The position numbers were made by a program, and so were the translations under genes. Under the pieces are notes generated by a model that saw only the letters and a list, made by a program, of their open reading frames with translations, did not search any database and was not told the DNA's origin. A DNA stretch of 64,000 nt from Cellulomonas aerilata (GTDB taxonomy: Bacteria; Actinomycetota; Actinomycetes; Actinomycetales; Cellulomonadaceae): NCBI RefSeq assembly GCF_007991755.1, contig NZ_BJYY01000013.1:496001-560000 (forward strand). The letters are read 5' to 3'. This document shows, piece by piece, positions 4,037 to 32,475 of the stretch (the stretch's first letter is position 1; each line of letters opens with the position of its first letter).

Positions 4037-7000
4037 CTATCCAGCGACCGCCGACGCCTCCGCGAACAGGCTCGCCGGCATCTCGTGCTGCAGGCGCCAC
4101 GTGAACGCGATGGGTTGCTCACCACGATGGGAGACGTACGTCGCAGGGCCGAGGAACACGTATGGCGCGGTCCCGACGTCGCTGTGCCTCGTCGCCCGCG
4201 AGAACAGCAGCACGTGCGTCCCACGCTCGCGGTGGTGGATATAGCGCTGGCCGGTCGGCGACGCCTCCTTGGTGACCGACTGGCTCTCCCAGTGGAAGAG
4301 CTGCGGGCTGATGGCGTAATCGCGGTAAAGCGTCGTCGGCGAGTAGGCGGTCTCCGTCTTCTGCAGCGTTACGAAGAAGGCGTCGGCCTGCCAGGGCTCC
4401 GAGAACAGCACTCCCTCGCGAAATGAGTTGGGCTTCCGTTCGAGACTGGCGTAGTCGAGGGCCGCGAGAATTTCCTCGCGCTGGTACCGGGCGTGGACCC
4501 GCAGCGGGTTGGTCGCAGAGGTGCCGATGGCCGGCCGGGTGAGGTGCTCGGCGTTGTCGAGCGCGCACCTGATCACCTCGTCGAGCTCATCGCGGGCGGC
4601 GCGCTCCGCCCGTAGTGCATCGAAGCCGTCGTCGTAGGAGGAGAAGGCGCCGCCGTCGGGCCACAGCGAGAAGAAGAGCATCCGCGCCCATGTCTGCTGG
4701 TCGGCGGTGAGGTCGCCGTATGCCGGCGCGTCGTCCGCCAGGAGCGCTCGGTAGCGACGAGCCCGCTCCGGATCGTCAACATGGGCCAATGCCCGCACCC
4801 GTCGGCGCAGGGCGTCGTCGCGCGGCCCCGCGTCGCGTACAGGGAGCCCGGCCTCCCGCCGCAGCCGGGCCCAGCCGCGGTCGCCGCGGCTGGTCGTTGC
4901 CACGACGTCAGCCAGTTCGAGGCCCGACTCGTCAAGGAATCGCGAGAGCGGGACGTCACCGGCCGCGCGCAGCTCCTCGATGACTCGCGCGCGTCGGCTG
5001 CCGATCTGCTGGCGCAGCGCGGCCAGGACCGCCTGCTGCGTGAACCGGTCCAGCACGATGTGCGAGCCGGACGGGAGGAAGGGGAAACCGTCCTGAACGT
5101 CGCGTTCGAGCCGCCCACGCGTCGCACCGGTGAGAGCCCGGAACCGCGCGTCGAGCCGGAACTCCTTGCGCTGATGCCCGACGAAATCCAGCGCGGTGAG
5201 CACAGCCTTGTCGTCGGCATGGCGCAGACCACGACCGAGCTGCTGGAGGAAGACGGTCGCGCTCTCGGTGGGGCGCAGGAACAGCACCGTGTCGACGTCG
5301 GGCAGGTCGACGCCCTCGTTGTAGAGGTCGGCCGTGAAGATGACGTTAATCATCCGGCTCGTCAGGTCGCGCAGCGCCTGTGCCCGCTCCGCGGCGGGTG
5401 TCTGACCGCTCACCGCCCGCGCGGGCAGCCCGGCCTCGGTGAACACGCGCGCCATGTACTCGGCGTGCGCCACGCCGACGCAGAAGCCGAGCGCGCGCAT
5501 GGCGTGGGGGTCTGAGAACTTGTCCCGCACCTCGCGCAGGACGATGCGGGCGCGCGCGTCGTTGCCTGTGTAGAGGTTGGCGAGGCCCGCCTCGTCGTAG
5601 CGACCGCGCTTCCACTCGATCGCGGAGAGATCGGTGCCATCGGAGACGCCGAAGTAGTGGAACGGCACGAGGAGGTCAGCCTCCAGCGCGTCCCAAAGCC
5701 GGAGCTCGGCCGCCGTCCGACCCTCGAAGAGCTGGCGCACGTCAAAGCCGTCGCTGCGCTCGGGCGTCGCGGTGAGGCCGAGCAGCTCCTGCGGTTGGAG
5801 ATGGTCGAGGATGCGGCGGTACGTCGGCGCGTCGGCGTGGTGGAACTCGTCGAAAACGACGACGTCGTAGGCATCTGCAGCGATGGACCGGACGTCGCGC
5901 GCGCTCAGCGCCTGTACTGAGGCGAAGACGTGTGTCCAAGCGCTGGGCACGAGGCCGCCGACCCACAGCTCACCGAAGTTCGCGTCGGCAAGCACCTCTC
6001 GGTAGGTGCGCAGCGCCTGGTCGAGGATTTCCCTGCGGTGGGCGAGGAAGAGCAGCCGCAGAGCACTCGGCGGACGCCCGGCAAGGAGCTGCTTGTAGTC
6101 GAGTGCCGCGACGACGGTCTTGCCTGTTCCCGTCGCGGCTACGAGCAGGTTGCGGTGGCGACCGTGGACCCCACGCTCGACCTGCAGGGCCTCGAGCATC
6201 TCGGCCTGGTGCTGGTACGGGCGCACCTCGAGTCCTGAGAGGGAGACGTTAACCCGGTCGGACGTGGTGCGACCCGACGCCTCAGCGAGCGCGTCGTCGA
6301 GGCGCTGCGCGTCGGTGTCCGGGTCGTACAACTCGTAAGTCGGGTCGTTCCAGTAGGTGTCGAAGACTGCTTCGAACTTCTGAGTGAGCGCCGGCGTCGC
6401 GACGCGCGAGAGGCGCACGTTCCACTCGAGGCCGTCGAGCATGGCCGACCGCGACAGGTTCGAGGACCCGACGTATGCAGTGTCGAAACCGGAGCCGCGC
6501 CGGAACAGCCACGCCTTGGCGTGCAGCCGAGTGCGGCGGATGTCGTACTGCACCTTGACCTCGGCACCGAACTCGCGGACAAGGCGGTCGAGCGCCTCAC
6601 GTTCCGTGGCACCCATGTAGGTGCTGGTGATGACGCGGAGCGGGACGCCGCGCGCTCGCCGAGCCTCGAGCTCCTTCTCGAGCAGGCGCAGGCCGTACCA
6701 CTTCACGAAGGCGCACAGGAGAGAGACGTCATCCGCCGACCCGAGCTCAGCCTTGATCTCAGCGCCGAGTGACGGCTCCTGCGGCGCGTTCGTCATCAGC
6801 GCGACGTCGCCCAGCGGGGTCGACGGGCGCTCCACCGGGTAGGAGTGAACGCCGGGTGCCGCCGCGAGCGAGACCCGCAGGAGTTGCTCGACGGGCGAGT
6901 CGACGAGCTCGTCAGTCTCATCGACCAGAGTCAGGACGTTGTTGGCCAGGTCGAGCCGGCGCTGCGGGTCGCGGGTCTGCACCAGCGCCCGGGTAAGAGC

Positions 7001-7138
7001 GGCCCCGACGTGCCGGGCGAGGACCTGGACCGCGACGGTGTCGTCGAGCCGTTCGGTCGTCACCTCTCGGTCAGCCAGCTCGTCGAGGGCGGCCCGCAGG
7101 CGCGCGGTCACGACGCTCTCGTACAACCCGTCCTGCAT
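4037..7138 (-). CDS. PLD-like nuclease / SF2 helicase / DUF3427 protein
   Basis: A 1033-residue protein with three parts. Residues about 130-230 form a phospholipase D-like nuclease domain (HAK at 206-208, GSSNLS near 225). Residues about 305-620 form a superfamily 2 helicase (ATGTGKT at 335-341, DEFHH at 430-434, LTATPER at 455-461). The C-terminal third resembles DUF3427. Proteins of this architecture occur in defence islands and are presumed to act on foreign DNA; the mechanism here is inferred. The ATG at 7138 is chosen because GGAG precedes it by six bases; an ATG at 7144 is immediately upstream. The gene is intact, unlike the nuclease-helicase pseudogene downstream on the same strand, with which it may once have formed a unit. 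Confidence 0.85.
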   Translation of the reverse strand: MQDGLYESVVTARLRAALDELADREVTTERLDDTVAVQVLARHVGAALTRALVQTRDPQRRLDLANNVLTLVDETDELVDSPVEQLLRVSLAAAPGVHSYPVERPSTPLGDVALMTNAPQEPSLGAEIKAELGSADDVSLLCAFVKWYGLRLLEKELEARRARGVPLRVITSTYMGATEREALDRLVREFGAEVKVQYDIRRTRLHAKAWLFRRGSGFDTAYVGSSNLSRSAMLDGLEWNVRLSRVATPALTQKFEAVFDTYWNDPTYELYDPDTDAQRLDDALAEASGRTTSDRVNVSLSGLEVRPYQHQAEMLEALQVERGVHGRHRNLLVAATGTGKTVVAALDYKQLLAGRPPSALRLLFLAHRREILDQALRTYREVLADANFGELWVGGLVPSAWTHVFASVQALSARDVRSIAADAYDVVVFDEFHHADAPTYRRILDHLQPQELLGLTATPERSDGFDVRQLFEGRTAAELRLWDALEADLLVPFHYFGVSDGTDLSAIEWKRGRYDEAGLANLYTGNDARARIVLREVRDKFSDPHAMRALGFCVGVAHAEYMARVFTEAGLPARAVSGQTPAAERAQALRDLTSRMINVIFTADLYNEGVDLPDVDTVLFLRPTESATVFLQQLGRGLRHADDKAVLTALDFVGHQRKEFRLDARFRALTGATRGRLERDVQDGFPFLPSGSHIVLDRFTQQAVLAALRQQIGSRRARVIEELRAAGDVPLSRFLDESGLELADVVATTSRGDRGWARLRREAGLPVRDAGPRDDALRRRVRALAHVDDPERARRYRALLADDAPAYGDLTADQQTWARMLFFSLWPDGGAFSSYDDGFDALRAERAARDELDEVIRCALDNAEHLTRPAIGTSATNPLRVHARYQREEILAALDYASLERKPNSFREGVLFSEPWQADAFFVTLQKTETAYSPTTLYRDYAISPQLFHWESQSVTKEASPTGQRYIHHRERGTHVLLFSRATRHSDVGTAPYVFLGPATYVSHRGEQPIAFTWRLQHEMPASLFAEASAVAG

Positions 7139-7545
7139 GCCCATCTCCCACCCGTCGACGGCGTCAGCTTGGCACGCCCCGCCGACACAATCTGCCGGCC
7201 ACACTCACTTCACCCGAACGCGAGCGGCTGCCACCTGCAGACATGTCGCCGCGTCGTCGCGGGCGCGCCGTCCACGATGCGCTTCGTGCACCACACGTTT
7301 GGGTAAGTTCCACGCCATGCGATCGGGGACGCTGTTGGTGGGGTTCTTCAGGTCTTGACCGGGGATCCGCTGACGCAGTTGCCGCCGCCCCCTTTATGTC
7401 ACCGATATCGCGGCGACGTCGCGCGCCGTGATACCGGAGCGCGAGAAGTTCATCACGCCGCTGGTTGCGTTGGGCGCAGTCCTGCACGGCGAGTTCACCC
7501 AGTTGGGCCTGAACGGCGCGGACGTCAATGTGCTGGGATCCGGCC
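7139..7545. other. Intergenic region with possible gene remnant
   Basis: This lies between the divergent DUF3427 and CoiA-like genes, so it should hold both promoters. From about 7398 to 7545 one + frame has strong third-position GC bias and a gene-like translation (EKFITPLVALGAVLHGEF, then TQLGLNGADVNVLG). It has no ATG, is closed upstream by a TGA at 7371-7373, and ends at about 7594 inside the next gene. I read it as the 3' remnant of an unidentified gene. No promoter element stands out. Confidence 0.35.
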
Positions 7546-9417
7546 ATGGTGTCCACCGCGACAACGACGGACGCGCCGGTCCTCGACGGGCCTAGCGACG
7601 GCCAGTCGAACCGGCGCCGCGTGCACCCGGATACAACCAGCGCGCAAGTGTTCGCCCGCGACACGCGCCTGCCACTCGGCTCCCCGCTGGTCCACCTCGA
7701 GCGCGGGCAAGCCGACGCCGTTCGCGGCGCGGTGCGCGCCGGGCACCTGGTGTGCCCGATCGCTGGCTGCCCCGACCCGTCGTTCGTCGTGCGCGGTAAG
7801 ACCCGGCGCGACCACTTCGCCCACCGGCCCGGCGCCGTCAGGCACGCCCCAGAGACCATCGCCCACCACACCGCCAAGAACCTGATCGGGGCATGGCTGC
7901 GCACCGAGCTCCCCGGCGCCGTCGTGCACGTCGACGACCAGGACATCGAGAACGGACAACGTCCCGACGTCCTGCTGACCCTTCCCGGCGGACGCCGTTT
8001 CGCCTACGAGGTCCAGTTCGCCCACCTCACGCCCGACGACTGGCAGCACCGCCACGACGGGTACGCCGCCGCCGGCATCCGCGACGTGTGGCTGTTCGGT
8101 GGTCACCGATACGACCACCCCACACGGGCTAAGCACCGCCTGGACGGCGAAGTTCATCTGCACTCGATCTTCGCGTCCGTGCTCGCGACCGGACACCCGA
8201 TGCTCTTGATCAACCCTGCAGAGCAGACCGTCGCTCTGGGCGCCGGCCCCGGAGTCGAGGAGCACCTGGCCGCTCGAGGCGTCGCCCCGCCCACCGGGTG
8301 GCACCACGCGCACGTCCACCAGCGCTGGGTCCTGGACCAGCTACGCGCGCCCGGCGGGGTCATCGACGTCCCCGGCACCCGCCGCCAGCTGGAGCGGGCC
8401 GCCGCAGACCATGCTGACTGGGCCACGCGGGCTGCGGCCCGCCGTGCCGAGCAGGCCGCTGCCGAGCGGGCCTTCGCCGAAGCTCAAGCTCGCCGCGAGC
8501 TCGTGCTCGCCGGTGCTCGCAACCTCGCCGCCCACATGGCGGAACGCGAGCTGCAGTGGGCTGACGAGCGGGCCGCCGCCGAGGCGGCGTACGGCCGACT
8601 GCCAAGCGTGGTCGACGCCACCGGCACAGAAGCCGAACTGACGCTGAGGACCGCGCCGTCCCAGTGGCGATGGCGAGTCCTACACGCGCTGTGCCAGGAG
8701 GGCACCGCGCACACCGACGCCAGCACTCTCGTGCACCTCATGGAGCCCACCAGCGGCACCACACAAGGCACACACGAGCTGCTCACCACGTACCTTCGGA
8801 CGCTGCGTCGCGCCGGGTGGGTGTGGTTCTGGGGTGTGCACACCCCAGACAAAGAACCGGTGCATCCCCTGACCCGCGTTGGCCAGCGACCCGCGGCCGA
8901 ACCCACCGCCAAGGCGCTCCAGCCGCGTGGACGCTCCGGTCGAGTCAAGGGCCCACCACCGCAACGTCACTCCCCCACTCCCGCCCGCGCCAGCGCGAAA
9001 GCGGCATCCGGGACTGGCAGGGGCACCCCGGCGCTGGCGGTGCGCCGGCAAGCCGCGGCCTCCATGCAGGCGCCACCCCGCACGTCCTGGCAGCCGTCCC
9101 TGCTGCCAGGACGAACCCCGCCCGCTCGGCTCCGGCGGCGAGCCGACGTCATCGACCAACACCCCGAGTACGCACAGTGGGCCGCAACCCAGGATTGGGC
9201 CTGGCTCCAGGCGGCCGTCGAACATCACCTGCTCAACGACGCCCGGCTCCTGGTGTACCTCGCATGCCACCTGTCACAGTCCGGGCCCGTGCACACGCTC
9301 CACCTGACCGACGTCAGCGACGACGACTTCCACACACTCCTCGGCGCGCTGCAGCGCGCGGGCTACCTCGACGTCGAGGAGTACGCCGCCGGCCACCGCA
9401 GGTGGCGCGCCCACTGA
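7546..9417 (+). CDS. CoiA-like competence/nuclease family protein
   Basis: A protein of about 623 residues. The N-terminal third resembles the CoiA family: a zinc-ribbon-like C..C pair (LVCPIAGCPDPSF), then DHFAHRPG, HHTAKNLIGAWL, and a nuclease-type stretch RPDVLLTLPGGRRFAYEVQF (D...E-x-Q, a PD-(D/E)xK variant). The middle is an Ala/Arg-rich coiled coil. The C-terminal 280 residues have two winged-helix-like segments joined by a low-complexity linker. CoiA is needed for DNA uptake in streptococci; copies in actinobacterial mobile elements have no proven role. The start could also be the ATG at 7528; the weak GGGAT before 7546 decides for the shorter form. Stop at 9417, followed by about 240 bases to the ParA gene. 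Confidence 0.7.
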   Translation: MVSTATTTDAPVLDGPSDGQSNRRRVHPDTTSAQVFARDTRLPLGSPLVHLERGQADAVRGAVRAGHLVCPIAGCPDPSFVVRGKTRRDHFAHRPGAVRHAPETIAHHTAKNLIGAWLRTELPGAVVHVDDQDIENGQRPDVLLTLPGGRRFAYEVQFAHLTPDDWQHRHDGYAAAGIRDVWLFGGHRYDHPTRAKHRLDGEVHLHSIFASVLATGHPMLLINPAEQTVALGAGPGVEEHLAARGVAPPTGWHHAHVHQRWVLDQLRAPGGVIDVPGTRRQLERAAADHADWATRAAARRAEQAAAERAFAEAQARRELVLAGARNLAAHMAERELQWADERAAAEAAYGRLPSVVDATGTEAELTLRTAPSQWRWRVLHALCQEGTAHTDASTLVHLMEPTSGTTQGTHELLTTYLRTLRRAGWVWFWGVHTPDKEPVHPLTRVGQRPAAEPTAKALQPRGRSGRVKGPPPQRHSPTPARASAKAASGTGRGTPALAVRRQAAASMQAPPRTSWQPSLLPGRTPPARLRRRADVIDQHPEYAQWAATQDWAWLQAAVEHHLLNDARLLVYLACHLSQSGPVHTLHLTDVSDDDFHTLLGALQRAGYLDVEEYAAGHRRWRAH

Positions 9418-9653
9418 GCAGCAGGCAGTTGGCATCCTTCGGTTGTCTCTTCGCTCTAAGCGGGGCGGATCTCGGCACATGACCGCTCAAGAGGTCACAG
9501 CGCTCCGGCTCTTGCAGTCCGTCTGGGTCTGTCGCAGTCGGGCCTGAAGACCGCGGCGGGGCGGCGCCCCTTACCGCCCGCACCCCTTGACGGATGCTGT
9601 GAACGACGTTCACACTGTGCTCAGTCGTCCGGTGTGGATGCCGTTCAAACTAC

Positions 9654-10706
9654 TTGGAGATCGTGGACATCGAGCTGGTTGGGCTTGCCGAGGTCGCAGC
9701 ACTCGCCAACACGAAGACGACCGTCGTCTCGAACTGGCGAAAGCGTGACCGACACTTCCCTGCGCCCGTTAGCGAGCTACGCAGCGGGCCGGTGTTCGAC
9801 CGCGATGCCATCGTCAAGTACTTGCGAAGGAGAGGCCGTCCGATGGCCCATGTCATCTCGACCATCAACCTCAAGGGTGGGGTCGGCAAGACCACCACAA
9901 CCGTCGCCCTGGCCGAGATGCTGTCAGGGGAGTTCGGGAAGCGGGTGCTGGTGGTCGACCTGGACCCGCAGACCAACGCGACCACGGTTCTGATCGGTGA
10001 GCAGAGATGGCGTGATCTGAACGACGCCGGACACACTCTCGCAACACTATTTACGGATGCGCTGGCCGGAGACAGCGAGGCGCCGAAGTTCGACCTGGAG
10101 AAGTCGCTGCAGCGATCGGCCTCGCCGGTCCAAGCCGTGCGCACGGTGGACTTGCTGCCGTCGTCCCTGGATCTGATCGACGTGCAGGACCGGCTGGGAA
10201 CGCTGCCTCCCGGCCGGTTCTTCTCCAACAATCCAACCGACCTGCTACGTCGAGCGATCAGGCCGATACTCGACCAGTACGACTACGTCCTGATCGACTG
10301 CCCACCCAACCTCGGGATTGTCACTCTGAACGGGTTGCGGATCTCCGACGGTTACATCATCCCCACCATCCCAGACGTCCTCTCGACGTACGGGATCCCC
10401 CAGATCCAGTCCCGGGTGAAGGCGTTCGCCGACAGCCTCGCTGAGTCGATCGCCGAGGTCGGCATCGTCATCACCAAGTACCGCAAGGGCACCAACGTCC
10501 ACGAGACCACGATCGACCGCCTCGAAGACGACCCGAACCTCCCGGCCGTCTTCGAAACCCGTATCCCCGAGGGGAACGCGATCGCCGCTTCGGTGGAGCA
10601 CACCGCCATCTCGACCCTCAGGCAGAAGTACGCCTATCAGGGCGGCTTCGAAGCGTTCCGCGACCTGACCGAGGAGTTCATCGACGCCGTGGAGGATCTC
10701 GCGTGA
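9654..10706 (+). CDS. ParA-family ATPase with N-terminal HTH
   Basis: A 350-residue protein. Residues 9-60 look like an excisionase/MerR-type helix-turn-helix (LAEVAALANTKTTVVSNW). From residue 68 it is a ParA/Soj ATPase with the deviant Walker A KGGVGKT (74-80), switch I DLDPQTNAT (102-110) and the Walker B region VLIDCPPN. ParA proteins segregate DNA or position complexes by ATP-driven nucleoid binding. The gene overlaps the next by four bases (GTGA), so the two are translationally coupled. The start is uncertain: TTG at 9654, or GTG at 9663 with GGAG only three bases upstream. It may serve partition of the excised element, or belong with the McrBC-like genes downstream. Confidence 0.85.
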   Translation: MEIVDIELVGLAEVAALANTKTTVVSNWRKRDRHFPAPVSELRSGPVFDRDAIVKYLRRRGRPMAHVISTINLKGGVGKTTTTVALAEMLSGEFGKRVLVVDLDPQTNATTVLIGEQRWRDLNDAGHTLATLFTDALAGDSEAPKFDLEKSLQRSASPVQAVRTVDLLPSSLDLIDVQDRLGTLPPGRFFSNNPTDLLRRAIRPILDQYDYVLIDCPPNLGIVTLNGLRISDGYIIPTIPDVLSTYGIPQIQSRVKAFADSLAESIAEVGIVITKYRKGTNVHETTIDRLEDDPNLPAVFETRIPEGNAIAASVEHTAISTLRQKYAYQGGFEAFRDLTEEFIDAVEDLA

Positions 10707-11164
10707 GCGCGCCCACCGTCTCGGACGTCGGAGCTGCGGCACAGCGACTTGCCGATGCACTACTCGCTCTCGGTGAGAACCGCCCGGAGCTAGCAGTCGG
10801 CCTCGCAGACATCACGACATCCGTGGTCGCAGAAGCTGCACGCACGCCGCGCTTCGCAAACGCCATCCAGACAGCTCTCGCGAGCCCTCCTCCCTCAGTC
10901 CCTTCCTCGACATCCCGGCGCCCCAGACGGCGCGCAACAGGAGCCATCGACCCCTTCGCGGTGTACGCGCAAGGCGGCGAAGCGGGCCTTCGCGACCAGC
11001 TTGACGGGCTCGACTTGGAACAACTGCGCGACATCGTGGCCCAGTACGGAATGGACCACGACCGACTCGCGATGAAGTGGAAGGACGCCGGACGGGTCAT
11101 CGACCGGATCGTGGAGAAGGTCACCACCCGCTCTGCGAAGGGGTCGGCGTTCCGCGACGCCTGA
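10703..11164 (+). CDS. Small ParA-coupled protein, function unknown
   Basis: A 153-residue protein starting with GTG inside the stop of the ParA gene. The N-terminal half is helical and Ala-rich; a short basic linker (RRPRRRA, about residue 73) follows. The C-terminal 70 residues (LEQLRDIVAQYGMDHDRLA, then KWKDAGRVIDRIVEKV) look like a conserved domain I have seen in partition-associated and mobile-element proteins. The coupling and basic linker suggest a DNA-binding ParB-like partner, but there is no ParB nuclease motif and no clear HTH. A 190-base gap separates it from the McrB-like gene. Confidence 0.7.
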   Translation: MSAPTVSDVGAAAQRLADALLALGENRPELAVGLADITTSVVAEAARTPRFANAIQTALASPPPSVPSSTSRRPRRRATGAIDPFAVYAQGGEAGLRDQLDGLDLEQLRDIVAQYGMDHDRLAMKWKDAGRVIDRIVEKVTTRSAKGSAFRDA

Positions 11165-11354
11165 CCGCAGCGCCGGCCAACCGACGAGTCGGGCCGAGAC
11201 TCGAGCTGGACCGACTCGGATGTCAGACGCCGCGGATTCGAAGACTCCCTCGCGCGTGTTCGGGGCGCCGCGCCCGATCCAGTGACCCGACGGCTGGTCT
11301 GGTCCGGGTTAGCCAGAAGGCGGGGAGTTGCTGCGGAGCCTCTAGGGTGACGTC

Positions 11355-13211
11355 GTGCCCCGCGCTAGCACTGTCGCCGTAGAGACCGCCATCCGCCACT
11401 GCCGTGCTCTCCAGTTGCGCACCGAACAGGGGGCGGCGTTCGACGCGCTGCTCGCGGCGTACAGGCTCCGGCGCCGCGGGCTCCCCGCCGAGATCAGCAC
11501 CGCTACGGACGTCGTTGTCGAAATGTTCGGCCTTCTCCCGGATCGGCCTGAGCAGGGGCGTTGCTACCTGTTCAGGGACATGTGGGGGCCGCTCGAGGGC
11601 GCCGGCAGGAGCAGCGCGTGGAACATCGCCACCCGCCAGGAGCGGATGGCGACCAAGCTCTTCAACGAGTTTGACCGGCCGCACGGCGTGCGGGCGAACG
11701 ATTTCCGTGGCGGGCCCCGCGCAGACGCCGCCGTCATCATGGGGAGCTTCCTGCGAGAGGCAAACAGGCCCGACCGTCGCCCCTCGTGGAGTGCGCTCGC
11801 CGCAGTTCTCCTGCGCAACACGTCCGTGGAGGACGAGGCGGCCGCCAGGGACGCGCTGCGCGACTACCTCGGTCGCTTGGACGGGGGCGCGGTGGTTCCC
11901 TTGTCCGAGGCGGAGCTCGACGCGTTTACAACGCGGGAACCGCTCGGCGTGCCGCTGCTTGCAGGCGCCCCCGCCGAGGAGTTCGCCCCGGACAAGTTGC
12001 CGGCGTCGCTGCTCCCAGGCGTTGGCGCGGTACAGCCGATGCAGGTCACCGAGGCAGTGGCCGGGACGTCGTACGACGTCGTTGGCGACGTCGTCGTTGA
12101 CTCGCGCGTGGAGCGCATGCTCGAGACGGCTGTGCGCACCTACCGAGCAGTGCTCTTGGTGGGCCCTCCAGGAAGCGGCAAGAACACCTTGCTCAAGCGG
12201 CTGATCGCCCGAGCGCAGGACAATCCCGGACTTCTGGGGCTGAGCGCACCCCCACGGCTGCCCCTGACGAGGACCCCGGACGAGAGCTGGACCAGCTTCG
12301 AGCTGATCGGCGGCCACGCGCCCACGGCCGACGGGCTTCGCTATGGCTCTGGAGCGGTCCTCGATGCGATCGAAGCTGACCGATGGCTGCTGCTCGATGA
12401 GACCAACCGCGCCGACATGGACAAGATCTTCGGTGCGTTGCTCACGTGGCTCTCGATGGACCCGGTCGAACTCGGGACTCTGGGTCCGGGAAACCCGACG
12501 CGAGTGACTCTGGGATGGAACATCGAATCACAGGCGAGCACTGTCGAGCCGGCGGAAGGCTTGGCGGTCGAAGCGGGCCAGGCCGCGGAGGTGTCCTTCA
12601 ACGCTGGGACCGACTGGCGCCTGCTGGGCACCTACAACCCGCAGGACGCTCAGAGGGTTTTCCGTTTCGGCGTCGCGCTGAGCCGGCGGTTTGCGATCGT
12701 GCCGGTCCCGCCCCTGAATCCGGACCAGTTCGTCACGCTGCTCGAGCGCCAGGAGGACGGCGCCGCGGCGCCGGTGCCGACCGGCCTCTTGCAGCGTGTC
12801 GCGGCTCTGTACCGCGCCCACTTCGAGGACCCCGCGACGCAGTTGGGGCCGGCGGTGTTCCTGCGGATGATCGAGTACGTGCTGTCCTCACACTGGCCCT
12901 CAGCGGCCGTCGGGGAGCGTGAACCGGCTGCTGAGGTAGAGGTGCCGCCGATCGGTGACGAGGCGCTTGACCTGGAGCCGCGTGCGGACGAGCAGGCCGC
13001 CGCATCGGCGCAAACATCGAGCGCGAGTGATGGCCAGCTGCTCGACGAGCTGCTGGCTGAGGCGTACCTCGTGCGGGTCGGCAAGTACCTCTCGACCTAC
13101 GACACCGAGACGATCGAGCTCCTCGGCCAGAAGGTCACGGAGGGCTCCCCGGCGGCGCTGAGCCCGCGACAGTGGGCATGGGTCGTCGAGCACCGTGTCT
13201 ATCTCGGCTGA
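11355..13211 (+). CDS. McrB-like AAA+ ATPase/GTPase
   Basis: A 618-residue protein. Residues 1-240 are an N-terminal region I do not recognise, presumably the target-sensing part. Residues about 250-480 are an AAA+ module of the McrB type: Walker A GPPGSGKN (270-277), Walker B WLLLDETNRADMDKIFG (344-360, close to the McrB signature LDEINRA) and sensor region LLGTYNPQD. The Walker A ends GKN, not GKT or GKS, which is unusual and may lower nucleotide hydrolysis. In McrBC the ring translocates DNA and activates the McrC nuclease; the next gene encodes such a partner and overlaps by 17 bases. GTG start at 11355 with TAGGGT six bases before it, compatible with a leaderless transcript. Confidence 0.8.
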   Translation: MPRASTVAVETAIRHCRALQLRTEQGAAFDALLAAYRLRRRGLPAEISTATDVVVEMFGLLPDRPEQGRCYLFRDMWGPLEGAGRSSAWNIATRQERMATKLFNEFDRPHGVRANDFRGGPRADAAVIMGSFLREANRPDRRPSWSALAAVLLRNTSVEDEAAARDALRDYLGRLDGGAVVPLSEAELDAFTTREPLGVPLLAGAPAEEFAPDKLPASLLPGVGAVQPMQVTEAVAGTSYDVVGDVVVDSRVERMLETAVRTYRAVLLVGPPGSGKNTLLKRLIARAQDNPGLLGLSAPPRLPLTRTPDESWTSFELIGGHAPTADGLRYGSGAVLDAIEADRWLLLDETNRADMDKIFGALLTWLSMDPVELGTLGPGNPTRVTLGWNIESQASTVEPAEGLAVEAGQAAEVSFNAGTDWRLLGTYNPQDAQRVFRFGVALSRRFAIVPVPPLNPDQFVTLLERQEDGAAAPVPTGLLQRVAALYRAHFEDPATQLGPAVFLRMIEYVLSSHWPSAAVGEREPAAEVEVPPIGDEALDLEPRADEQAAASAQTSSASDGQLLDELLAEAYLVRVGKYLSTYDTETIELLGQKVTEGSPAALSPRQWAWVVEHRVYLG

Positions 13212-14448
13212 CCCGTACCCGGTTCCGACCGGTCGCCTTCGCGAGCTGCTCGGTGGCTGGAGCGGCCAGGGTTCGCTCAGTTCCACGCTCTGGGCTGACC
13301 TGGCGGCGGTCGAGGGCGAGGACGACACGCCCCTTGCTGAGCGCCAGTGGAGCGAGCGCGATGTCACCCGCCGAGCGCACCGGGTGCTGCTCGAGCGGCT
13401 GCAGCCACAGCTCGAGCGATGGCCGACACGCTTGCGCGACTGGAGCGAGGCGCTGCCCGCGGTGACGAACTCACAACGTGTGGTCTCCGCGCGGCCGCTA
13501 CGTCCTACGGACTGGGCGCAGACCGCCCGCCGTCACGGGTGGCCACCGTCCACGTTCATCGGCCGGAGGCGAACGTCTCAGGCCGACGAGCTATTGGTGA
13601 GCACACTCCTTTGGACCCTCCCCCAGGTGCTCACCACCGTTCGTCACGCCACCGCGATTCTTCCGGGAGCCGACACAACGATTAAACTTCAGATGGCAGC
13701 GGCCGCGCGCCTACTCGAGGTCTACGTCGGAGACGACGAAGCACCCGAGCCGGCGCCGGCAGACCTTGCTGCCGTTGCTCGTGCGGGAAATCCATGGAAC
13801 TTGCTGGCCCCGGTGAGCTCGACGTACCTGCGCTATCAGCACCACTTGGAGGATCTCGCCCTCGAGGTGATCTACCCCCTGGAAAGTCTGCGGTGGAGGC
13901 TCTTCCACATCGGCGTGCTCGGGGAGGTACTCGGGGCATTGCGGGACGAAGGTGCCGAGCTCCGGTGGCGCGCTCCCCTGTCCGCCACCGGCGGACGCCC
14001 CCAGTACCTCGCTCACTGGCCCGACGGGTCACCGCCTCTCGAGGTCTGGTTCGAAGCGGCCGGGGTATGGAGCCGTCACGCAAGCAGGTCGCCTTATCGA
14101 GATGCCCTTCGAGCGCTTGGGATGCAGCCAGGTGCGATCGGACCCGACATCCTCCTACTCGACGTCGTGGGACGTCGGGCGTTGGTGCTCGAGTGCAAGT
14201 TCGGCGACGCTCGCTACGTCGGCCGCAACGGCTACCTCCAGGCATTGGCCTACGCGAGCGAGCTCCGCGTCGACGTCGCTGACGAAATCTGGACGTACGT
14301 CGTCGGGCCGGACGGCGTCGTCACCGGCTCGAGCGATACGAGCCTTCACGGCCCGCACACCGCGCGGCGGGTCGGCGTCACCTCTCCTACGGCACTGCCC
14401 GACGTGGTGCGGGCGTTCCTCGGTTCCGGCACAGACCCGCGCACGTAG
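13195..14448 (+). CDS. McrC-like PD-(D/E)xK nuclease
   Basis: A 417-residue partner of the preceding AAA+ protein, starting with GTG inside that gene. The N-terminal 230 residues are helical. The C-terminal part carries a restriction-endonuclease fold core: D318 in GPDILL, E333-C-K335 in VLECKF, and Q349 with Y353 in YLQALAY. This matches McrC and related proteins, where the nuclease is silent until the AAA+ ring delivers DNA. All expected catalytic residues are present, so cleavage is plausible. It converges with the methyltransferase gene on the other strand with only 16 bases between stop codons. Confidence 0.75.
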   Translation: MSISADPYPVPTGRLRELLGGWSGQGSLSSTLWADLAAVEGEDDTPLAERQWSERDVTRRAHRVLLERLQPQLERWPTRLRDWSEALPAVTNSQRVVSARPLRPTDWAQTARRHGWPPSTFIGRRRTSQADELLVSTLLWTLPQVLTTVRHATAILPGADTTIKLQMAAAARLLEVYVGDDEAPEPAPADLAAVARAGNPWNLLAPVSSTYLRYQHHLEDLALEVIYPLESLRWRLFHIGVLGEVLGALRDEGAELRWRAPLSATGGRPQYLAHWPDGSPPLEVWFEAAGVWSRHASRSPYRDALRALGMQPGAIGPDILLLDVVGRRALVLECKFGDARYVGRNGYLQALAYASELRVDVADEIWTYVVGPDGVVTGSSDTSLHGPHTARRVGVTSPTALPDVVRAFLGSGTDPRT

Positions 14449-14464
14449 TCGTACGCGACCGTAA

Positions 14465-15763
14465 CTACGCCTTCGCCGCCCGGGTGACCGAGACGTCGTC
14501 GTGGGAGGGCGCGCGGGAAGCGTGGTCTCCGTAGGCGCCGAAAGCGGTCGACTCGACCATGCCGATCAACTCTTCCGCCTGAGCAAGGTACTCCGGCGCG
14601 ACGTCAATCCCCAAGAATCGGCGTCCGAGCGACCGGGCGGCTACGCCGCTCGTACCGCTGCCCACAAAAGGATCGAGGACGACGTCGCCCGCGTTGGTCG
14701 TCAGGCCGATGCACCGCGCGGGCAGCGCCAGCGGGAACTGCGCGCCGTGTCCGCCGCCCTGTGAGGTGGCCAAATGCCAGACGTCCGAAAGCTTGTCGGT
14801 CTCCAGGAGAGTGTTGCGGCCGCCGAGCGTGGGCGGCAGCTGCCGGTAGGCGTCTCGGCTAAACCGGGGCGTGCGGTGCTTGGAAAGGTGGAGGACGTAC
14901 TCCAAGCTTCGGCTCACCCGGGAGTTCTGCGGCTCAGGGGTAGTGTACGGCTTTGCCCAGGTGATGGTGCTCTTTACGTAGTACCCGAGGCGGCTGGCGC
15001 GCGCTGCAATTTGAGCAGGAATTTGGCACTGCTCGCCATCCTTGAGGTAGGCGTGGCCGGCGCTGTAGCGCCGGCTCTCGTGCTCTGCCCACGCTCGCTT
15101 GTCGTGCCCCTGCATCGCTCGCAGCGCCTCGGCGGCGTTGCCCCGGATCTGCGTGCGAGTGTTGAACGTGTCCATAACGTTCCACCAGATGCTGCCGTGG
15201 TCGGCAAGTGCAGGGATGAGCCGGTATAGCAACTCAGTGGTGTGGCGGACGAACCCTTCGGGCGTCTGCTCGTGTCCGTACGGACAAACTTCGCCGTCCG
15301 CCCAGGTGACAAAGTGCGACGCCTTGTAGACGCGCATGGCCCAGTACGGAGTCGAGGTGACGACACAGTCCACGCTCCCTGCGGGAATCCGAGGGATGAG
15401 GTCGAGTGCGTCACCCTCGAGGAGCTCGAAAGCCTCGCCGTCCTCCAGACTGATCGGGTCAGGCGAGGCTTCGACTCGCCCCGCAGCAGTTGCGAACAGG
15501 TAGTCGAGCACCTGGCTCCGCCGGACGAACGTCTCGGCATACGCGTCTTGGTCGAGGAGTTCTATGACTTGGCCAGCAGTGAGGGTGTTCACCGGAGCAC
15601 CGAGCACTCGGCGGATGAACGTCTTCGACATCCCCACCACGCTCGCGACATCCTCGATCGCTACGCGTGTCGAGGAGTCGGCGTAGCGAGTCCGGTCCAG
15701 CCGGGCCACCGGCGTGACCGGCTTCACGTCGGGCAGAGACCTAGGCGGCGTGAGGCGGGTCAC
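14465..15763 (-). CDS. DNA methyltransferase (N4-cytosine/N6-adenine type)
   Basis: A 432-residue protein. Residues 30-75 form a helix-turn-helix (VAIEDVASVVGMSKTFIRRV). The methyltransferase follows: catalytic motif TSTPYW (136-141) where TSPPYW is usual, and the AdoMet-binding motif DPFVGSGTSG at 364-373. The order, catalytic motif first, fits the beta class that includes many N4-cytosine enzymes; the modified base cannot be read from sequence. It faces the McrC-like gene and is coupled (GTGA overlap) to the 102-residue gene upstream. Either it protects DNA against a nuclease in the island, or it marks DNA that the McrBC-like pair recognises. Both readings are inference. Confidence 0.85.
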   Translation of the reverse strand: MTRLTPPRSLPDVKPVTPVARLDRTRYADSSTRVAIEDVASVVGMSKTFIRRVLGAPVNTLTAGQVIELLDQDAYAETFVRRSQVLDYLFATAAGRVEASPDPISLEDGEAFELLEGDALDLIPRIPAGSVDCVVTSTPYWAMRVYKASHFVTWADGEVCPYGHEQTPEGFVRHTTELLYRLIPALADHGSIWWNVMDTFNTRTQIRGNAAEALRAMQGHDKRAWAEHESRRYSAGHAYLKDGEQCQIPAQIAARASRLGYYVKSTITWAKPYTTPEPQNSRVSRSLEYVLHLSKHRTPRFSRDAYRQLPPTLGGRNTLLETDKLSDVWHLATSQGGGHGAQFPLALPARCIGLTTNAGDVVLDPFVGSGTSGVAARSLGRRFLGIDVAPEYLAQAEELIGMVESTAFGAYGDHASRAPSHDDVSVTRAAKA

Positions 15764-16068
15764 CGAGCCTCCCCCGGGCCCAGACGCTCGAGCTCAAGAT
15801 CGTCTGGGACGCCGCTCGCTCCCTCTGTGACGGTGTTATCGGGAGTGGGCGGCATCGTGATCACATCGGTGCTGTCCAGCCAGCGGTACGACCACTCCGA
15901 CCTCACCACGATCCGATCCGCCCAGGGGAAGTGGCTTGGCGCGAGGCTCTGGACCGCAGACTTGAGGGCCACTATCGCGGCGTCGATCCGAGCGCCCCGG
16001 ATGTTCGCCCGGAGGCCCTCGGGCACATGAAGCTCGAACGACAACGTCAGGACGCGGTGGCTAGGCAC
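15760..16068 (-). CDS. Small protein coupled to methyltransferase
   Basis: A 102-residue protein whose TGA overlaps the GTG start of the methyltransferase, so the two are one operon. The first 70 residues alternate hydrophobic and charged positions (VLTLSFELHVPEGLRANI, then DAAIVALKSAVQSLA), consistent with a small alpha/beta fold. No catalytic motif is visible and I do not recognise the family. Its fixed place before the methyltransferase suggests a regulator or specificity partner. Confidence 0.65.
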   Translation of the reverse strand: MPSHRVLTLSFELHVPEGLRANIRGARIDAAIVALKSAVQSLAPSHFPWADRIVVRSEWSYRWLDSTDVITMPPTPDNTVTEGASGVPDDLELERLGPGEAR

Positions 16069-16115
16069 GTCAGAACCCTATCTCGCGGAGATCTCTAGGT
16101 GTCCACGACATGCCG

Positions 16116-16291
16116 CTACGTGTCTGCTAAGTGACCAACAGCTTCCTCGTGGCCGCCCGCGTTGCCGACGATCGCCTTCGCACGTTCGATCGCCTCGGCC
16201 TGCGTGTCGGTGTGCGCGGACGCCCGCGAACCGCCGCCGGTGACCTTCCAGCCGCCGGCCGGGTCCGGGACACGTTCCTATCAGTAGCCAC
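16116..16291 (-). pseudogene. DUF2188 protein, frameshifted
   Basis: The GTG at 16291 opens with VATDRNV. The DUF2188 signature then continues in a different frame as DPAGGWKVTGGGSRASAH and DTQAEAIERAKAIVGNAGG. One missing base explains the switch: the sequence reads GTGTCCCGG where GTGGTCCCGG would keep the frame and give the expected V-V-P-D-P. Downstream of the shift the frame ends at the TAG at 16116, and the usual C-terminal HGRDGRI motif is also lacking. DUF2188 proteins are small, basic and of unknown function. Confidence 0.6.
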
Positions 16292-16648
16292 TGCTCGTGC
16301 CTCTCGCCCCGCGCGAAGCCCGGCCCCCCGCACCATGAGGGTGACAGGCGCCTCCCACATCTCACCTGCAAGTGGTGCGCTCTGGCGCTCACCCGGCCGG
16401 GGCACGTGCTCGCTCGTTCGAGCCGACATACTCGCAGGTAGCCGTGGCGCAACGACCCCACCGCCGAGCTACATCCGAAGTCGCCGCGGACGCCGGCGCG
16501 CAACCTCATCAACGCAGCCTTCACCCAACGTGCGGCCACCCGGGACGACGGCCTTGTCGTGTCGATGCCCCTTTAGGAGGGCGGGCGAGAGCACCGTGGC
16601 CAGAGACTGCGGACATCCGAGTCTGCTGCAGGGACAGCTACACCTGGG
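16292..16648. other. No supported gene
   Basis: About 360 bases between the DUF2188 remnant and the interrupted conserved gene on the minus strand. Open frames are Arg-rich and motif-free on both strands. The stretch probably holds the promoter of the DUF2188 gene and may contain eroded coding sequence. Confidence 0.35.
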
Positions 16649-16903
16649 CTACATGGCGACGGCCGGATCGGTCTCTCTTGGCACTTGGACCGGTTCGGAC
16701 AGGCTCGGTGTGCTGATGCATTGCTTTTCCGCCAAGGTGCCGGAGCGAGCGACGGAGTCCAGTAGTGCCGCCAGCTGCCCTCGTGCGTCGACCAAGTCCA
16801 GGTTCGTGGGCGGTTGGCCCGGCACCCGCTGGAGTGTTCGGGCGTGGCCAAACAGCTCCGAGTAGGTGCGCCCGGCTACCTGTTCGTAGTGTGGGACGGA
16901 CCG
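16649..16903 (-). pseudogene. Downstream part of interrupted gene (after TAA)
   Basis: This 84-codon stretch continues, in the same frame, the gene that stops at the TAA at 16904-16906. Its translation is gene-like (HYEQVAGRTYSELFGHARTL, then DARGQLAALLDSVA) and ends ...DPAVAM at a TAG. There is no start codon or ribosome site near its beginning. The simplest reading is that the upstream gene once ran through and a sense codon such as CAA became TAA. The alternative is a separate short gene starting at an internal GTG. Confidence 0.5.
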
Positions 16904-22049: not shown

Positions 22050-24575
22050 TCAGGGTGCACTGCGGACTGCCGTCGCCGTACCGCGGAACCAGGCCAGCGC
22101 CTCGAGCAGGCGCTCCTGTGACCGCCCCTCGGCGAGCAGCGTCACCTCGAACCCAGGCCGCATTGCGAGTTTGACGGCCGGCAGGTTGACGCCTGGCACG
22201 GCGTTGAGCCGCTGCCGCAATGCCTCGCGTAGCGCTACGTCGTCGAAGGGCGGCCGGTACTGCATCCACTGGAAGACCACCTCGAATTTGCCCGAGGGGT
22301 AGATGGCCGCCGGCCAAACTCCACCGTGTCGGATGTCGCGCTCGTCGACCATGAGGAAGGCCGTCGTCTCGTCCGCCGAGCCGTACGCGAGCACGCCGCC
22401 CATGTCCTGCCAGGCGGCCAACACGGATAGCACCGCCTTGGCCACGGGCGGCTCGTGGGCCGAATAGAGCTGCTCCTGGAAGCGGCTCGCAGCCTCGTCC
22501 TCCTCGCCCAGGTCCGGCACGGCGTCGGGGAGCTCGGCCGGGTCGAGACCAACTAGAACGGCCAGTTCATCGACGCGCATGCGGCGCGACTGGTCAGCGC
22601 GGCCTTGCTCGTCGACAGGAACGCCTTCCTGGCGAAGCATCTCCGTGGGGTCGTCGTCTCGGTCTGGGTCGTTCCAGCGGAACCCGGGCGGGACCGCGCC
22701 CGAGCTTTTGCGGACGCGGTGAGCGTTTGGCATCTCGTGATTGGCCACGCGCTGTCCCACCGGCACTTGGTGGCTGCCGATTAGCGCCGCTAGGTCGAGG
22801 TAGGAAGTCCACGACCCGGCCGGCAGCGCCGCGACCGCCGCCTCCAGCACGTCCCATGCCGGCTCACCAGCCGAGCGGACGCCAGCGAGCGGTGCGGGCC
22901 AGTAGGCGCAGATGCGGTCGGCGAGCCGGTCGGCGCGGGCAAGGATCTCGGGTCGACCCCACCGCTCCTGCGAGGCGATGTCCCTTGTCATGGCCACACC
23001 GCTGGTCTGCAGCGTCGTGCGCTTGACCGCGAAGGGCTTGTTACCGAGCGGCGAGTTATAGCCGGTCAGCGTGAGGTTGCCGAGGGTGTGCAGTAGCTCT
23101 CGGTGCAGATCCTCCGGCTCCTCGTTCTCGCCGGCGTCCTCGGACAGCACCTCAAGCCACGATTCGGTGAGGGTCTGCGGTAGAACGTGCTCGATCGTAA
23201 GCCGATCGCCCTGCACCGGCTCGCGGTTGTGGTATGTCTCCTCGACCCAGCGGAGAAGCAGCGCGCGCTGGGGCGCCCGGCCGTTGAGGTAGAACGGCAC
23301 TGTCTGCAGCGCGGCGCGCACGTCGTCGTCGCGGGCGAAGTACTTGCGGCCAGACGACAGGTAACGGTGTACCGCCTCGTCGACGGGCAGATTCTCGTCC
23401 AGCGACGGAACGACGTCGAGCAGCACGCGGTTGATGTTCGCCGTAGCCCGGCCGATGAGCAGTCGCCGCACGAGAAAGCTTTCGACCACTAGCAGCGCCT
23501 GCGCTACAGCGGCACTGTCGGTCTGTCCGCGTTCACGCAGGTCCAGCAGGTGCAGCGCCAACGGGTAGACCGTCGTCGTTCCCCAGTCCTTCAGTCGCTG
23601 GAGGCGCCGTCGAACGCTGGGGTCATGCTCCTGCTCCGGGTCGAGTACCGAGCGCAGGAGTCGGCCGAGACGGGCGAAGCGCGCCACCTCCGCTTCAATC
23701 TCGGTCTCCATGGTCAGCCGCTCGAGCCGGCGCTGCTGCTGCTCGTAGATTTCGGTCTGCTTGATGCGGCTGTCCTTGCGCACCAGGTCGAGCCAGAACA
23801 GCAGTTCCAGGTCGTCCGAGCTCAACGCCTGCTGCAGCGGCAGCCAAACGCCGTTGTAGACACGCTCGCCGGCCGTGGGCAGTCGCATGAAGAGGTAGTT
23901 GCGCAGAAGGTCGCCCTGCTTGAGCGCAAGGCCGGTGTTGTTGAGCGACTCGAAGATTCGGTAGGCGTTGTCGCCGGGCTGCGCCGTGACGGACACAAGC
24001 GACAGCCCGCGGATGACGGCGCCCTCGATACGGTCGACATCCAACGGGTCGTCGGCATCGTCGACACGGACCAACTGACTGCGGAAGTAGCGGTACGCGG
24101 CACCCACCCGATCTGGCCCGCCCGCCTGCGGCGTCGCATCCAGGACGGCCTCGTACGCCGGGCGGTCCGCCTGTGTCGGCACGACCTTCGGGCGCTCTGC
24201 GGCGGGCCTGTACTTGTTCGTGAGGAACAGTTCGTCAAGGCGCTGCCGGTGGTCTCCACCTTCCGTCGCCTGACGGTGGTCTCGGATGGCGCACAGCAGC
24301 AGCGTGAGCGTCGTCAAACGCTGCTGGCCGTCGACGACGAGGTACTCCTGCACCCCGACGGGGCCGAGGCCAGGGCTAGGGGCGAGGACGACAGAGCCGA
24401 TGAAGTGCGTGGCCGTCTGATCGTGCTGGCGGTCGTCGGCGAGCTTCTCCACGTCGTCCCACAGGCGCTTGAGTTGTGCCTCTCCCCAGGAGTAGGTGCG
24501 CTGGTAGAGGGGCACGCGGTACTGCTTCGAGCCCTCGAGCAGCTCCTGCAGCGTCGTCTCCTTGGCAATGACCAC
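22050..24575 (-). CDS. DUF262-DUF1524 (GmrSD-like) protein with ATL domain
   Basis: An 841-residue fusion. Residues 21-90 carry the DUF262 motifs VPLYQRTYSW and DGQQRLTT, a ParB-like NTPase fold as in GmrS and BrxU. Residues 455-520 are DUF1524, an HNH-type nuclease (H463 in IEHVLPQ, LGNLTL, N508). Residues about 575-635 match an alkyltransferase-like DNA-binding fold without the reactive cysteine (SWTSYLDLAALIG, RVANHEMPNAHRVRKSSG). The last 125 residues are an unrecognised domain. GmrSD enzymes cut modified phage DNA in an NTP-dependent way; the ATL part could sense modified bases. GTG start at 24575 without a clear ribosome site. The gene appears intact. Confidence 0.85.
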   Translation of the reverse strand: MVIAKETTLQELLEGSKQYRVPLYQRTYSWGEAQLKRLWDDVEKLADDRQHDQTATHFIGSVVLAPSPGLGPVGVQEYLVVDGQQRLTTLTLLLCAIRDHRQATEGGDHRQRLDELFLTNKYRPAAERPKVVPTQADRPAYEAVLDATPQAGGPDRVGAAYRYFRSQLVRVDDADDPLDVDRIEGAVIRGLSLVSVTAQPGDNAYRIFESLNNTGLALKQGDLLRNYLFMRLPTAGERVYNGVWLPLQQALSSDDLELLFWLDLVRKDSRIKQTEIYEQQQRRLERLTMETEIEAEVARFARLGRLLRSVLDPEQEHDPSVRRRLQRLKDWGTTTVYPLALHLLDLRERGQTDSAAVAQALLVVESFLVRRLLIGRATANINRVLLDVVPSLDENLPVDEAVHRYLSSGRKYFARDDDVRAALQTVPFYLNGRAPQRALLLRWVEETYHNREPVQGDRLTIEHVLPQTLTESWLEVLSEDAGENEEPEDLHRELLHTLGNLTLTGYNSPLGNKPFAVKRTTLQTSGVAMTRDIASQERWGRPEILARADRLADRICAYWPAPLAGVRSAGEPAWDVLEAAVAALPAGSWTSYLDLAALIGSHQVPVGQRVANHEMPNAHRVRKSSGAVPPGFRWNDPDRDDDPTEMLRQEGVPVDEQGRADQSRRMRVDELAVLVGLDPAELPDAVPDLGEEDEAASRFQEQLYSAHEPPVAKAVLSVLAAWQDMGGVLAYGSADETTAFLMVDERDIRHGGVWPAAIYPSGKFEVVFQWMQYRPPFDDVALREALRQRLNAVPGVNLPAVKLAMRPGFEVTLLAEGRSQERLLEALAWFRGTATAVRSAP

Positions 24576-31283: not shown

Positions 31284-32468
31284 CTACCGTCCACCCGTTG
31301 GGTGAAGGCGCAGCCCGGCCATGGCACGGGAGGCGGCGTCCGCGGCGGCTCGCTGCTGGTCGGGGAGGAGGTGCGCGTAGGTCTCGGTCGTTGTCGTGAT
31401 CGACTCGTGCCCGAGGCGGCGCTGCAGCACGAACAGGTCCGTTCCCGCGGCGATCATCCACGACGCGTGCGTGTGCCTCAGGTCGTGCACGCGCGGCCGC
31501 TTGGTCAGTCGGGGGGCATCGGGGTCGGGCGATCCGTCGGACCGTCGGGGGTTGCGGGCGGCGTCGAGCGCCGGCGTCCACGTGGTCGTCCAGAACCGCG
31601 GCGACTGCAAATGCGCGCCGACGGTGTTGGTGAACAGGAGCTCGCCGGGCGCCTTGCCGGCGACGAGCGGGGAGAGCACGTCGACCAGGTCGTCCCGCAG
31701 CGACACGGTGCGCCACGCGCGCTTGGTCTTCGGCGGGCCGACGTACCAGTGCCGATCCTGATCCCGCTTCCATGCCTTGGTCACCTTGATCGTCGCCGGG
31801 CGGGACACGAGGTCGACGTCGCCCGTGGTGAGCGCGGTGGCCTCACCCCAGCGCAGCCCGGTGGCGACGAGGGTCAGCACGAGCGGCTGGTAGTGCGGCG
31901 GGATCTTGGACAGCAGGAGCATGAACTCGTCGGGGGTGAGCACCGTCATGTCGTCGCGGGTGGACTGCGACTTGGGCAGCAGGACGCCGGCGCACGGGTT
32001 GTCAGGTCGGTACCCGAGCCGCACCGCGGTCGCCATCGACGCGGAGAAGAGCCCGTGGACGTTGGCGATGGTCTTGGGCGCCAGGCCCTTCTTCGACATG
32101 TCCGCGACCCAGCCGGCCACCTGCCGGTAGGTCAGCGCGGAGACCGGGAAGGCACCGAGCGTCGGGACGATATGGGCCGCCATCTGCTGGCAATAATGGG
32201 CGCGGGTGTCAGTGCCGACCGCGGTCAGGAGGTCGATGTGCTCGGCGACGACCTGGGCGACGGTGGGTCCGAACTTGCGGATGGCGTCAGCAACTCGCGC
32301 CGCCTCGGCGGCGTATCCGCCGGCCGCCTCGATCAGCTTCTTGGCGACGATCGCCTCGCGTTCGTCGTCGTACGTCAGGGACGTCTGGCGTCCCGTCTCG
32401 GGGTCACGCCAGAGCACCGCGAACGCCCGCGTCCCGTCCGCGCGACGCCGCTCCCGCAGAGAGGCCAT
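31284..32468 (-). CDS. Tyrosine recombinase / element integrase
   Basis: A 394-residue phage-type integrase from the ATG at 32468. It has an N-terminal arm-binding region (SLRERRRADGTRAFAVLW), a SAM-like core-binding domain (KFGPTVAQVVAEHIDLL onward) and a catalytic domain with Arg in ATGLRWGE, HDLRHTHASW, LGHESI and the nucleophile Tyr in TETYAHL. All catalytic residues are present. The gene ends towards the excisionase and begins 78 bases from the 3' end of ssrA, the usual arrangement for an integrase that uses tmRNA as target. A perfect palindrome (32476-32509) lies just upstream; no ribosome site is visible, so translation may start on a leaderless or near-leaderless mRNA. Confidence 0.93.
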   Translation of the reverse strand: MASLRERRRADGTRAFAVLWRDPETGRQTSLTYDDEREAIVAKKLIEAAGGYAAEAARVADAIRKFGPTVAQVVAEHIDLLTAVGTDTRAHYCQQMAAHIVPTLGAFPVSALTYRQVAGWVADMSKKGLAPKTIANVHGLFSASMATAVRLGYRPDNPCAGVLLPKSQSTRDDMTVLTPDEFMLLLSKIPPHYQPLVLTLVATGLRWGEATALTTGDVDLVSRPATIKVTKAWKRDQDRHWYVGPPKTKRAWRTVSLRDDLVDVLSPLVAGKAPGELLFTNTVGAHLQSPRFWTTTWTPALDAARNPRRSDGSPDPDAPRLTKRPRVHDLRHTHASWMIAAGTDLFVLQRRLGHESITTTTETYAHLLPDQQRAAADAASRAMAGLRLHPTGGR

Positions 32469-32475
32469 ACAGGAA

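Follow-up and report, generated by a model that had tools for sequence, protein, structure and literature searches.

The question raised by a 64,000-nucleotide stretch of Cellulomonas aerilata DNA (RefSeq assembly GCF_007991755.1, contig NZ_BJYY01000013.1, positions 496,001 to 560,000; the whole stretch is hereafter called the window) is whether six compact genes at positions 9654-16068 form a single defence unit. They encode a ParA-like ATPase, a McrB-like AAA+ protein, a McrC-like protein, a DNA methyltransferase (MT) and two small proteins, and an initial annotation had proposed that all six act together. The present analysis points to a smaller unit. The MT, the McrB-like and the McrC-like proteins likely constitute a self-contained restriction-modification (R-M) system of the LlaJI/PcaI type (probability about 0.85), with the ParA gene, its 153-residue partner and the 102-residue protein as independent passengers on the same island. 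Each of the six reading frames was found in place, with the positions and overlaps originally described:

9654-10706, + strand: ParA-like ATPase with a helix-turn-helix (HTH) N-terminus, 350 residues, TTG start; AAA_31 match, E 4.6e-40.
10703-11164, + strand: 153-residue partner of ParA; 4-base overlap with the ParA gene.
11355-13211, + strand: McrB-like AAA+ subunit, 618 residues; AAA_5 match, E 2.5e-10.
13195-14448, + strand: McrC-like subunit, 417 residues; 17-base overlap with the McrB-like gene.
14465-15763, - strand: MT, 432 residues, N6/N4 type; PF01555 match, E 6.4e-38.
15760-16068, - strand: 102-residue protein; 4-base overlap with the MT gene.

Third-position G+C in the six genes is 0.73-0.84, compared with 0.43-0.55 at second positions, as in real genes of this DNA. 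The 153-, 102- and 417-residue proteins match no Pfam family above its curated cut-off, and promoter and terminator consensus sequences, looked for across 9300-16900, were not found. Two aspects of the layout speak against one six-gene cluster: the 153-residue gene is separated by 190 bases from the McrB-like gene, and the MT and its 102-residue neighbour lie on the opposite strand to the other four genes.

The strongest evidence for a three-gene unit comes from the neighbourhood of the MT. Genome contigs were scanned by means of two short peptide patterns, using as query an alignment of the window MT with its 60% identical counterpart on a plasmid of Rhodococcus fascians. This yielded at least 15 loci with 52-63% identity, a lower bound because of the short patterns, some of them on short contigs. 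The phyla represented include Actinomycetota, Pseudomonadota, Planctomycetota and Acidobacteriota. The relatives have the N-terminal segment of the MT in common. Motif IV of N6/N4-type enzymes is usually (D/N/S)PP(Y/F/W); here it takes the variant form TSTPYW in 16 of the 17 relatives aligned and TSSPYW in the other. A plasmid search with the MT matched 74 records at E <= 1e-20; in one record the match spans 80% or more of the MT. More distant MTs were found in phage records (four at E <= 1e-30) and in viral contigs, where a scan with the MT pair returned two relatives at 23% identity.

An AAA gene and a presumed nuclease gene stand immediately next to the MT in 12 of the 15 loci (L and G numbers below are the locus and genome labels of this analysis), and a thirteenth such pair lies beside the R. 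fascians plasmid MT. Eleven of the 12 pairs are arranged tail to tail with the MT, with -53 to +11 bases between the stop codons (16 in the window). The partner genes fall into three types, as judged by tblastn with proteins of the window or of R. fascians, by alignment and in part by Pfam. Type A, that of the window, comprises L043, L048, L049 and L050 together with the diverged L039 (AAA E 1e-43, nuclease 8.8e-19, N-terminal domain 5.2e-5). Type B (L040, L041, L042, L051, L052 and L053) has the same MT family and tail-to-tail layout; in L041 and L051, both scanned with Pfam, AAA_5 and PF10117 (McrBC family) were found. Its AAA part is related to that of the window (E 2.3e-12) but its nuclease is not detectably so (0.15). 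Type C, found in Nocardioides (L047) and on the R. fascians plasmid, has a pair divergent from the MT with another AAA and another presumed nuclease; the type C nuclease of L008 gives no family match, and its PD..DxK motif was read by eye only. On the MT tree the three labels need four changes against a minimum of two, though the number and direction of partner exchanges are not settled by it, since 8 of the 14 inner branches are open. The earlier view that the MT goes together with the McrB-like and McrC-like genes is thus borne out by the recurrence of an MT with an AAA/nuclease pair across phyla.

The assignment of the 417-residue protein as a McrC-like subunit, first made by eye, holds for the predicted PD-(D/E)xK nuclease. 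An alignment of six type A proteins, that of L039 among them, shows D318, E333, C334, K335 and Q349 to be invariant, and the best four Foldseek matches of its structural model in the PDB are all chains of McrBC complexes (6hz4_M, 7vsr_M, 6hz4_N and 6ut6_G), at E values of 3e-3 to 2e-2, with 0 matches at E <= 0.001. Applied to 295 other class genomes, the McrC profile gave no further copy, and the window protein had no relatives in viral contigs. Two weak matches within the class (G499, 6.5e-5; G576, 4.9e-4) were set aside as chance; both lie in ribosomal-protein regions, that of G499 partly antisense to a gene reading as rpoA.

The McrB-like subunit consists of an N-terminal domain (residues 1-245) followed by an AAA+ motor, in which the Walker motifs GPPGSGK and LLLDETNRAD can be read intact. 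Against PDB sequences, the protein matches McrB chains (2.7e-5) only over residues 222-367. The N-terminal part had originally been described as no recognised sensor, which stands insofar as residues 1-240 have no Pfam match at E <= 0.1 and no PDB sequence match. It is nevertheless homologous to the domain in the same position beside the R. fascians and Nocardioides MTs (type C; hhalign E 2.4e-28, compared with a minimum of 0.029 in 50 column-shuffled control comparisons). Between these same two types, the AAA parts (4.9e-4 over 30 columns at the P-loop) and the nucleases (0.26) are not convincingly related. When the N-terminal domain of L048 was searched against 72,556 plasmid records, the single match was that of R. 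fascians (E 5e-4), with an MT adjoining.

The opposite pattern is seen in McrB-like proteins obtained by other routes. A search of the class with the McrB-like protein matched 19 genomes besides its own, of 394, and among the best 4 of these 19, which were inspected (G488, G278, G263 and G277), G488 holds a McrB-like piece only, without McrC or MT (L033), and G277 had no match to the query set (L036). In two genomes (L034 and L035), a related McrB/McrC-like pair of 689 and 406 residues stands near genes that read as transposases. The corresponding plasmid search matched 43 records, of which one (H4) was inspected. On plasmid pB of Paenarthrobacter ureafaciens (L010 3938-10138), McrB-like and McrC-like genes lie beside two methyltransferases on the other strand; this is probably another LlaJI-like system, with an N-terminal domain unrelated to that of the window. 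The window-type AAA part is clearly related to those of L010 and L034 (5.6e-30 and 6.4e-31, respectively), as is the nuclease (4.4e-9), whereas the N-terminal domains are unrelated (0.79 and 0.085). This double dissociation, of the type C comparison on the one hand and the L010/L034 comparison on the other, indicates that between types A and C the N-terminal domain travels with the MT, and the motor with the nuclease, as far as homology can tell. We therefore propose that residues 1-245 are a target-recognition domain; such a pattern would be expected of a domain that recognises the site of the MT and is coupled to an interchangeable cutting engine.

The order of the genes, their recurrent association, the homology between their parts and the intact motifs are consistent with the following scheme, which we infer by analogy with LlaJI (PMC1459862) and PcaI (PMC8989522), as described in the accessible parts of both reports. 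The MT would mark one DNA site on the host chromosome, and residues 1-245 of the McrB-like protein would recognise that site in its unmarked state. The AAA+ part would assemble with the McrC-like PD-(D/E)xK nuclease into a complex that loads at unmarked sites, moves along the DNA and cuts it. In those accessible parts, LlaJI R1 is reported to bind its site and R2 to carry the proposed catalytic PD..D/ExK motif (PMC1459862), and PcaI is described as an MT paired with McrB/McrC-like proteins, with an N-terminal domain unrelated to that of McrB (PMC8989522).

Several observations weigh against this reading. Three of the MT loci show no full pair: L044 has an MT without partner, L046 one with a nuclease fragment only, and the contig of L045 stops just past the MT. 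The loci were found through the MT and hence cannot show how often a McrBC-like pair lacks one; no MT was seen beside the pair of L035 (18.8 kb of sequence), nor, in a shorter stretch (7.5 kb), beside that of L034. Between the window and type B, which accounts for 6 of the 12 pairs, no homology of the N-terminal domain is detectable (E 0.017, probability 2.7), so a specificity shared across types is not established. The structure prediction that had been suggested for this domain was run, and the model (mean pLDDT 74) has no PDB fold match; the McrC-like model is moderate (pLDDT 69, pTM 0.58), its C-terminal part being better. According to the accessible text on LlaJI, R1 showed no GTPase activity and R1 with R2 gave no cleavage in vitro (PMC1459862).

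In a second reading, the MT is an unrelated neighbour, and the McrBC-like genes encode a modification-dependent (type IV) enzyme. McrBC itself cuts modified DNA, the nearest solved fold to the nuclease is McrC, and the L035 pair exemplifies a relative with no visible MT. However, a host could not survive if the MT marked its DNA and the neighbouring enzyme cut at that mark, an MT adjoins the AAA/nuclease pair in most loci of the family, and the N-terminal domain is common to another MT-linked type. The window system has a partner MT, and no McrB-type methyl-DNA-binding N-terminal domain was matched in it, so neither hallmark of a type IV McrBC is present. A modification-dependent enzyme is accordingly improbable here, and the LlaJI/PcaI-type R-M system remains preferred.

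What, then, are the ParA gene and its partner? The ParA protein carries a deviant Walker A motif (KGGVGKTT, read in alignment) and matches phrog_164, a ParA-like partition protein, at 7.6e-50. The HTH noted at its N-terminus is supported by a PHROG excisionase/regulator match over residues 3-64 (E 0.0007). Relatives were examined by scanning 28 ParA loci with hidden Markov models, namely 23 viral contigs (including the near-identical L071, L072 and L060, and with L073 and L074 also alike), three plasmid records (one of them L011) and two genomes. A relative of the 153-residue protein (E <= 1e-3) stands beside ParA in 22 of them: directly downstream in 17 of the 23 viral contigs, and in L002, L003, L011, L065 and L066. 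In these 17 viral ParAs the match starts at query residue 3-8, with 43-60% identity; in the six without the small protein, which are the most distant ParAs, it starts only at residue 61-67. None of the 28 loci holds the window McrC, McrB N-terminal domain or MT. Because the pair recurs at loci without the window R-M genes, it is a travelling cassette separate from them.

The C-terminal part of the 153-residue protein is conserved, and neither the protein nor its 19 relatives matched a ParB-like or other centromere-binding Pfam family; it may be a ParA partner of a novel sort. A direct scan of viral contigs with the window protein returned no relatives, phage records held no ParA relative at E <= 1e-20, and G303 gave a weak match to the small protein (6.4e-4). 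A similarity of the family to HORMA proteins (best 0.013, in 8 of 20 related members; PDB 0.027 over 30 positions) was rejected as too weak and short.

The simplest reading of the pair, and one we consider somewhat favoured, is that it serves to partition or maintain the island. This reading agrees with the phrog_164 match, with the occurrence of relatives on plasmids and with a PF00589 integrase somewhere in 7 of the 17 records with a ParA relative; on the other hand, the small partner is unlike ParB and every other known family, and several copies lie inside phage head-gene blocks or near defence genes. The neighbours concerned were a chosen set of 29 proteins from 14 contigs (leaving out L066, L079, L085 and others). 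The pair stands between terminase and portal genes in L082 and near capsid genes in L060, L074 and L077. It lies near MzaC and beside the DISARM genes DrmA/DrmB in L065, near a PLD helicase and a DUF1156 methyltransferase in L003, near ShosA in L061, near IetS in L081, and with type I R-M genes on both sides in L075. A type III-like methyltransferase occurs near ParA in L080, and lone methyltransferases in L078 and L086, all of them unrelated to the window MT; L080 5098-7782 (the same as the L062 scan) has no PADLOC match, and the 1249-residue protein of L083 no Pfam match. Phage head-gene clusters and defence islands are the usual carriers of small defence systems. A tentative and less likely alternative is that ParA and its partner form a stand-alone two-gene defence or phage-exclusion cassette, moving between such clusters and islands.

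The 102-residue protein is probably also a passenger rather than part of the R-M unit. Searches of the 15 MT loci and of 285 further class genomes gave no match to it; its relatives are in eight Streptomyces plasmid records, and the two inspected list no MT nearby.

That the six genes form one new defence unit, with ParA and the small proteins regulating or assisting the McrBC-like nuclease, is therefore very unlikely: the genes are adjacent, with short overlaps inside each pair, and relatives of the ParA pair often lie near other defence genes, but the ParA pair is regularly found without the McrBC-like genes, relatives of the 153- or 102-residue proteins are absent from all 15 MT loci, a ParA match occurs in just one of these (L053, 27% identity), and the 190-base gap parts the two groups.

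All six genes appear to be carried on an island at the tmRNA gene, the right end of which would be marked by two features:

32547-32912, - strand: tmRNA gene, predicted by ARAGORN; putative right island end with the integrase-like gene.
31284-32495, - strand: putative integrase gene adjoining the tmRNA gene, named by reading alone as a tyrosine integrase.

Measured in 2-kb steps, the first 28 kb or so of the window have a G+C content of 0.66-0.71; the value is 0.68-0.73 between 28 and 33 kb and mostly 0.70-0.78 after that. In the 4.06 Mb assembly to which the window belongs (G000), 23 bases of the tmRNA 3' end are repeated directly, in the same direction and with 22 of 23 matching, at about position 476950 of contig C13; G+C drops at this repeat, and no tRNA is predicted there. 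Should this repeat mark the far end, the island would span about 52 kb. A second, shorter match to the tmRNA 3' end (17 bases, 16 matching) is at L067 12507, further inside. Between the integrase-like gene and the tmRNA gene, at 32476-32509, is a 34-base inverted repeat (30 of 34 matching).

Other genes of the island include a second restriction-type gene at 4037-7204 (- strand), encoding a 1055-residue PLD-helicase-DUF3427 protein that scores 1170.9 bits with the PADLOC type IV mREase model. Directly before ParA, at 7528-9417 (+ strand), is the gene of a 629-residue protein with a CoiA nuclease-like domain (PF06054, 5.3e-11). An 841-residue protein encoded at 22050-24575 (- strand) begins in a manner that we take to resemble the DUF262/GmrSD restriction proteins.

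The proposed six-gene unit is hence corrected to three genes, with the ParA pair singled out as a separate cassette. If the R-M reading is true, one MT family has at least three different cutting engines (A, B and C) as its partners across distant phyla; A and B have related AAA parts, and the nucleases of A, B and C are not detectably related. Between A and C, the site-reading domain would then stay with the MT while motor and nuclease are replaced. It then becomes testable how McrBC-type motors are converted from cutting modified DNA to cutting DNA without the modification, and which residues are responsible for recognising the site. In the literature covered (titles and abstracts among the matches listed, with subscription papers and REBASE outside the scope), none names this MT and N-terminal domain family or the ParA pair.

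How the window system relates to known ones can be judged by their descriptions. Escherichia coli McrBC has a similar AAA+ part in McrB and a similar McrC nuclease fold, but its McrB N-terminal domain is not common to the window protein, and it has no MT and reads methylated DNA, as the accessible text on LlaJI relates (PMC1459862). The initial annotation was therefore right that classical McrBC lacks a cognate MT. However, the window system is not a new kind of unit, since McrBC-like nucleases with partner MTs have been published, as is evident even from the accessible parts of the reports (PMC1459862, PMC8989522). CoCoNuTs are likewise McrBC relatives, but are defined, in the part of their description available, by coiled coils and predicted RNA targeting (PMC11090510). 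Like LlaJI and PcaI, the window system combines an adjoining MT, an AAA+ protein with intact Walker motifs and a McrC-like PD-(D/E)xK subunit. Compared by description, LlaJI similarly has a McrB-like R1 that binds a specific site, a McrC-like R2 with PD..D/ExK and partner MTs, and differs in having two MTs and an asymmetric site, against one MT in the window (PMC1459862, accessible text). For PcaI, the available description gives one MT, a McrB-like AAA+ protein and a McrC-like PD-(D/E)xK protein, with an N-terminal domain unrelated to that of McrB (PMC8989522). In contrast, the PcaI MT is a Dcm homologue and that of the window belongs to PF01555 (again compared by description), and for the window N-terminal domain and McrC-like protein the libraries searched gave no family above cut-off. 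The window system is thus of a known, little-studied kind; what appears new, from homology, is the N-terminal domain family and a clear case of cutting-engine exchange. PcaI, on the same partial account, acts on unmethylated DNA (PMC8989522), and the same is proposed for the system of C. aerilata.

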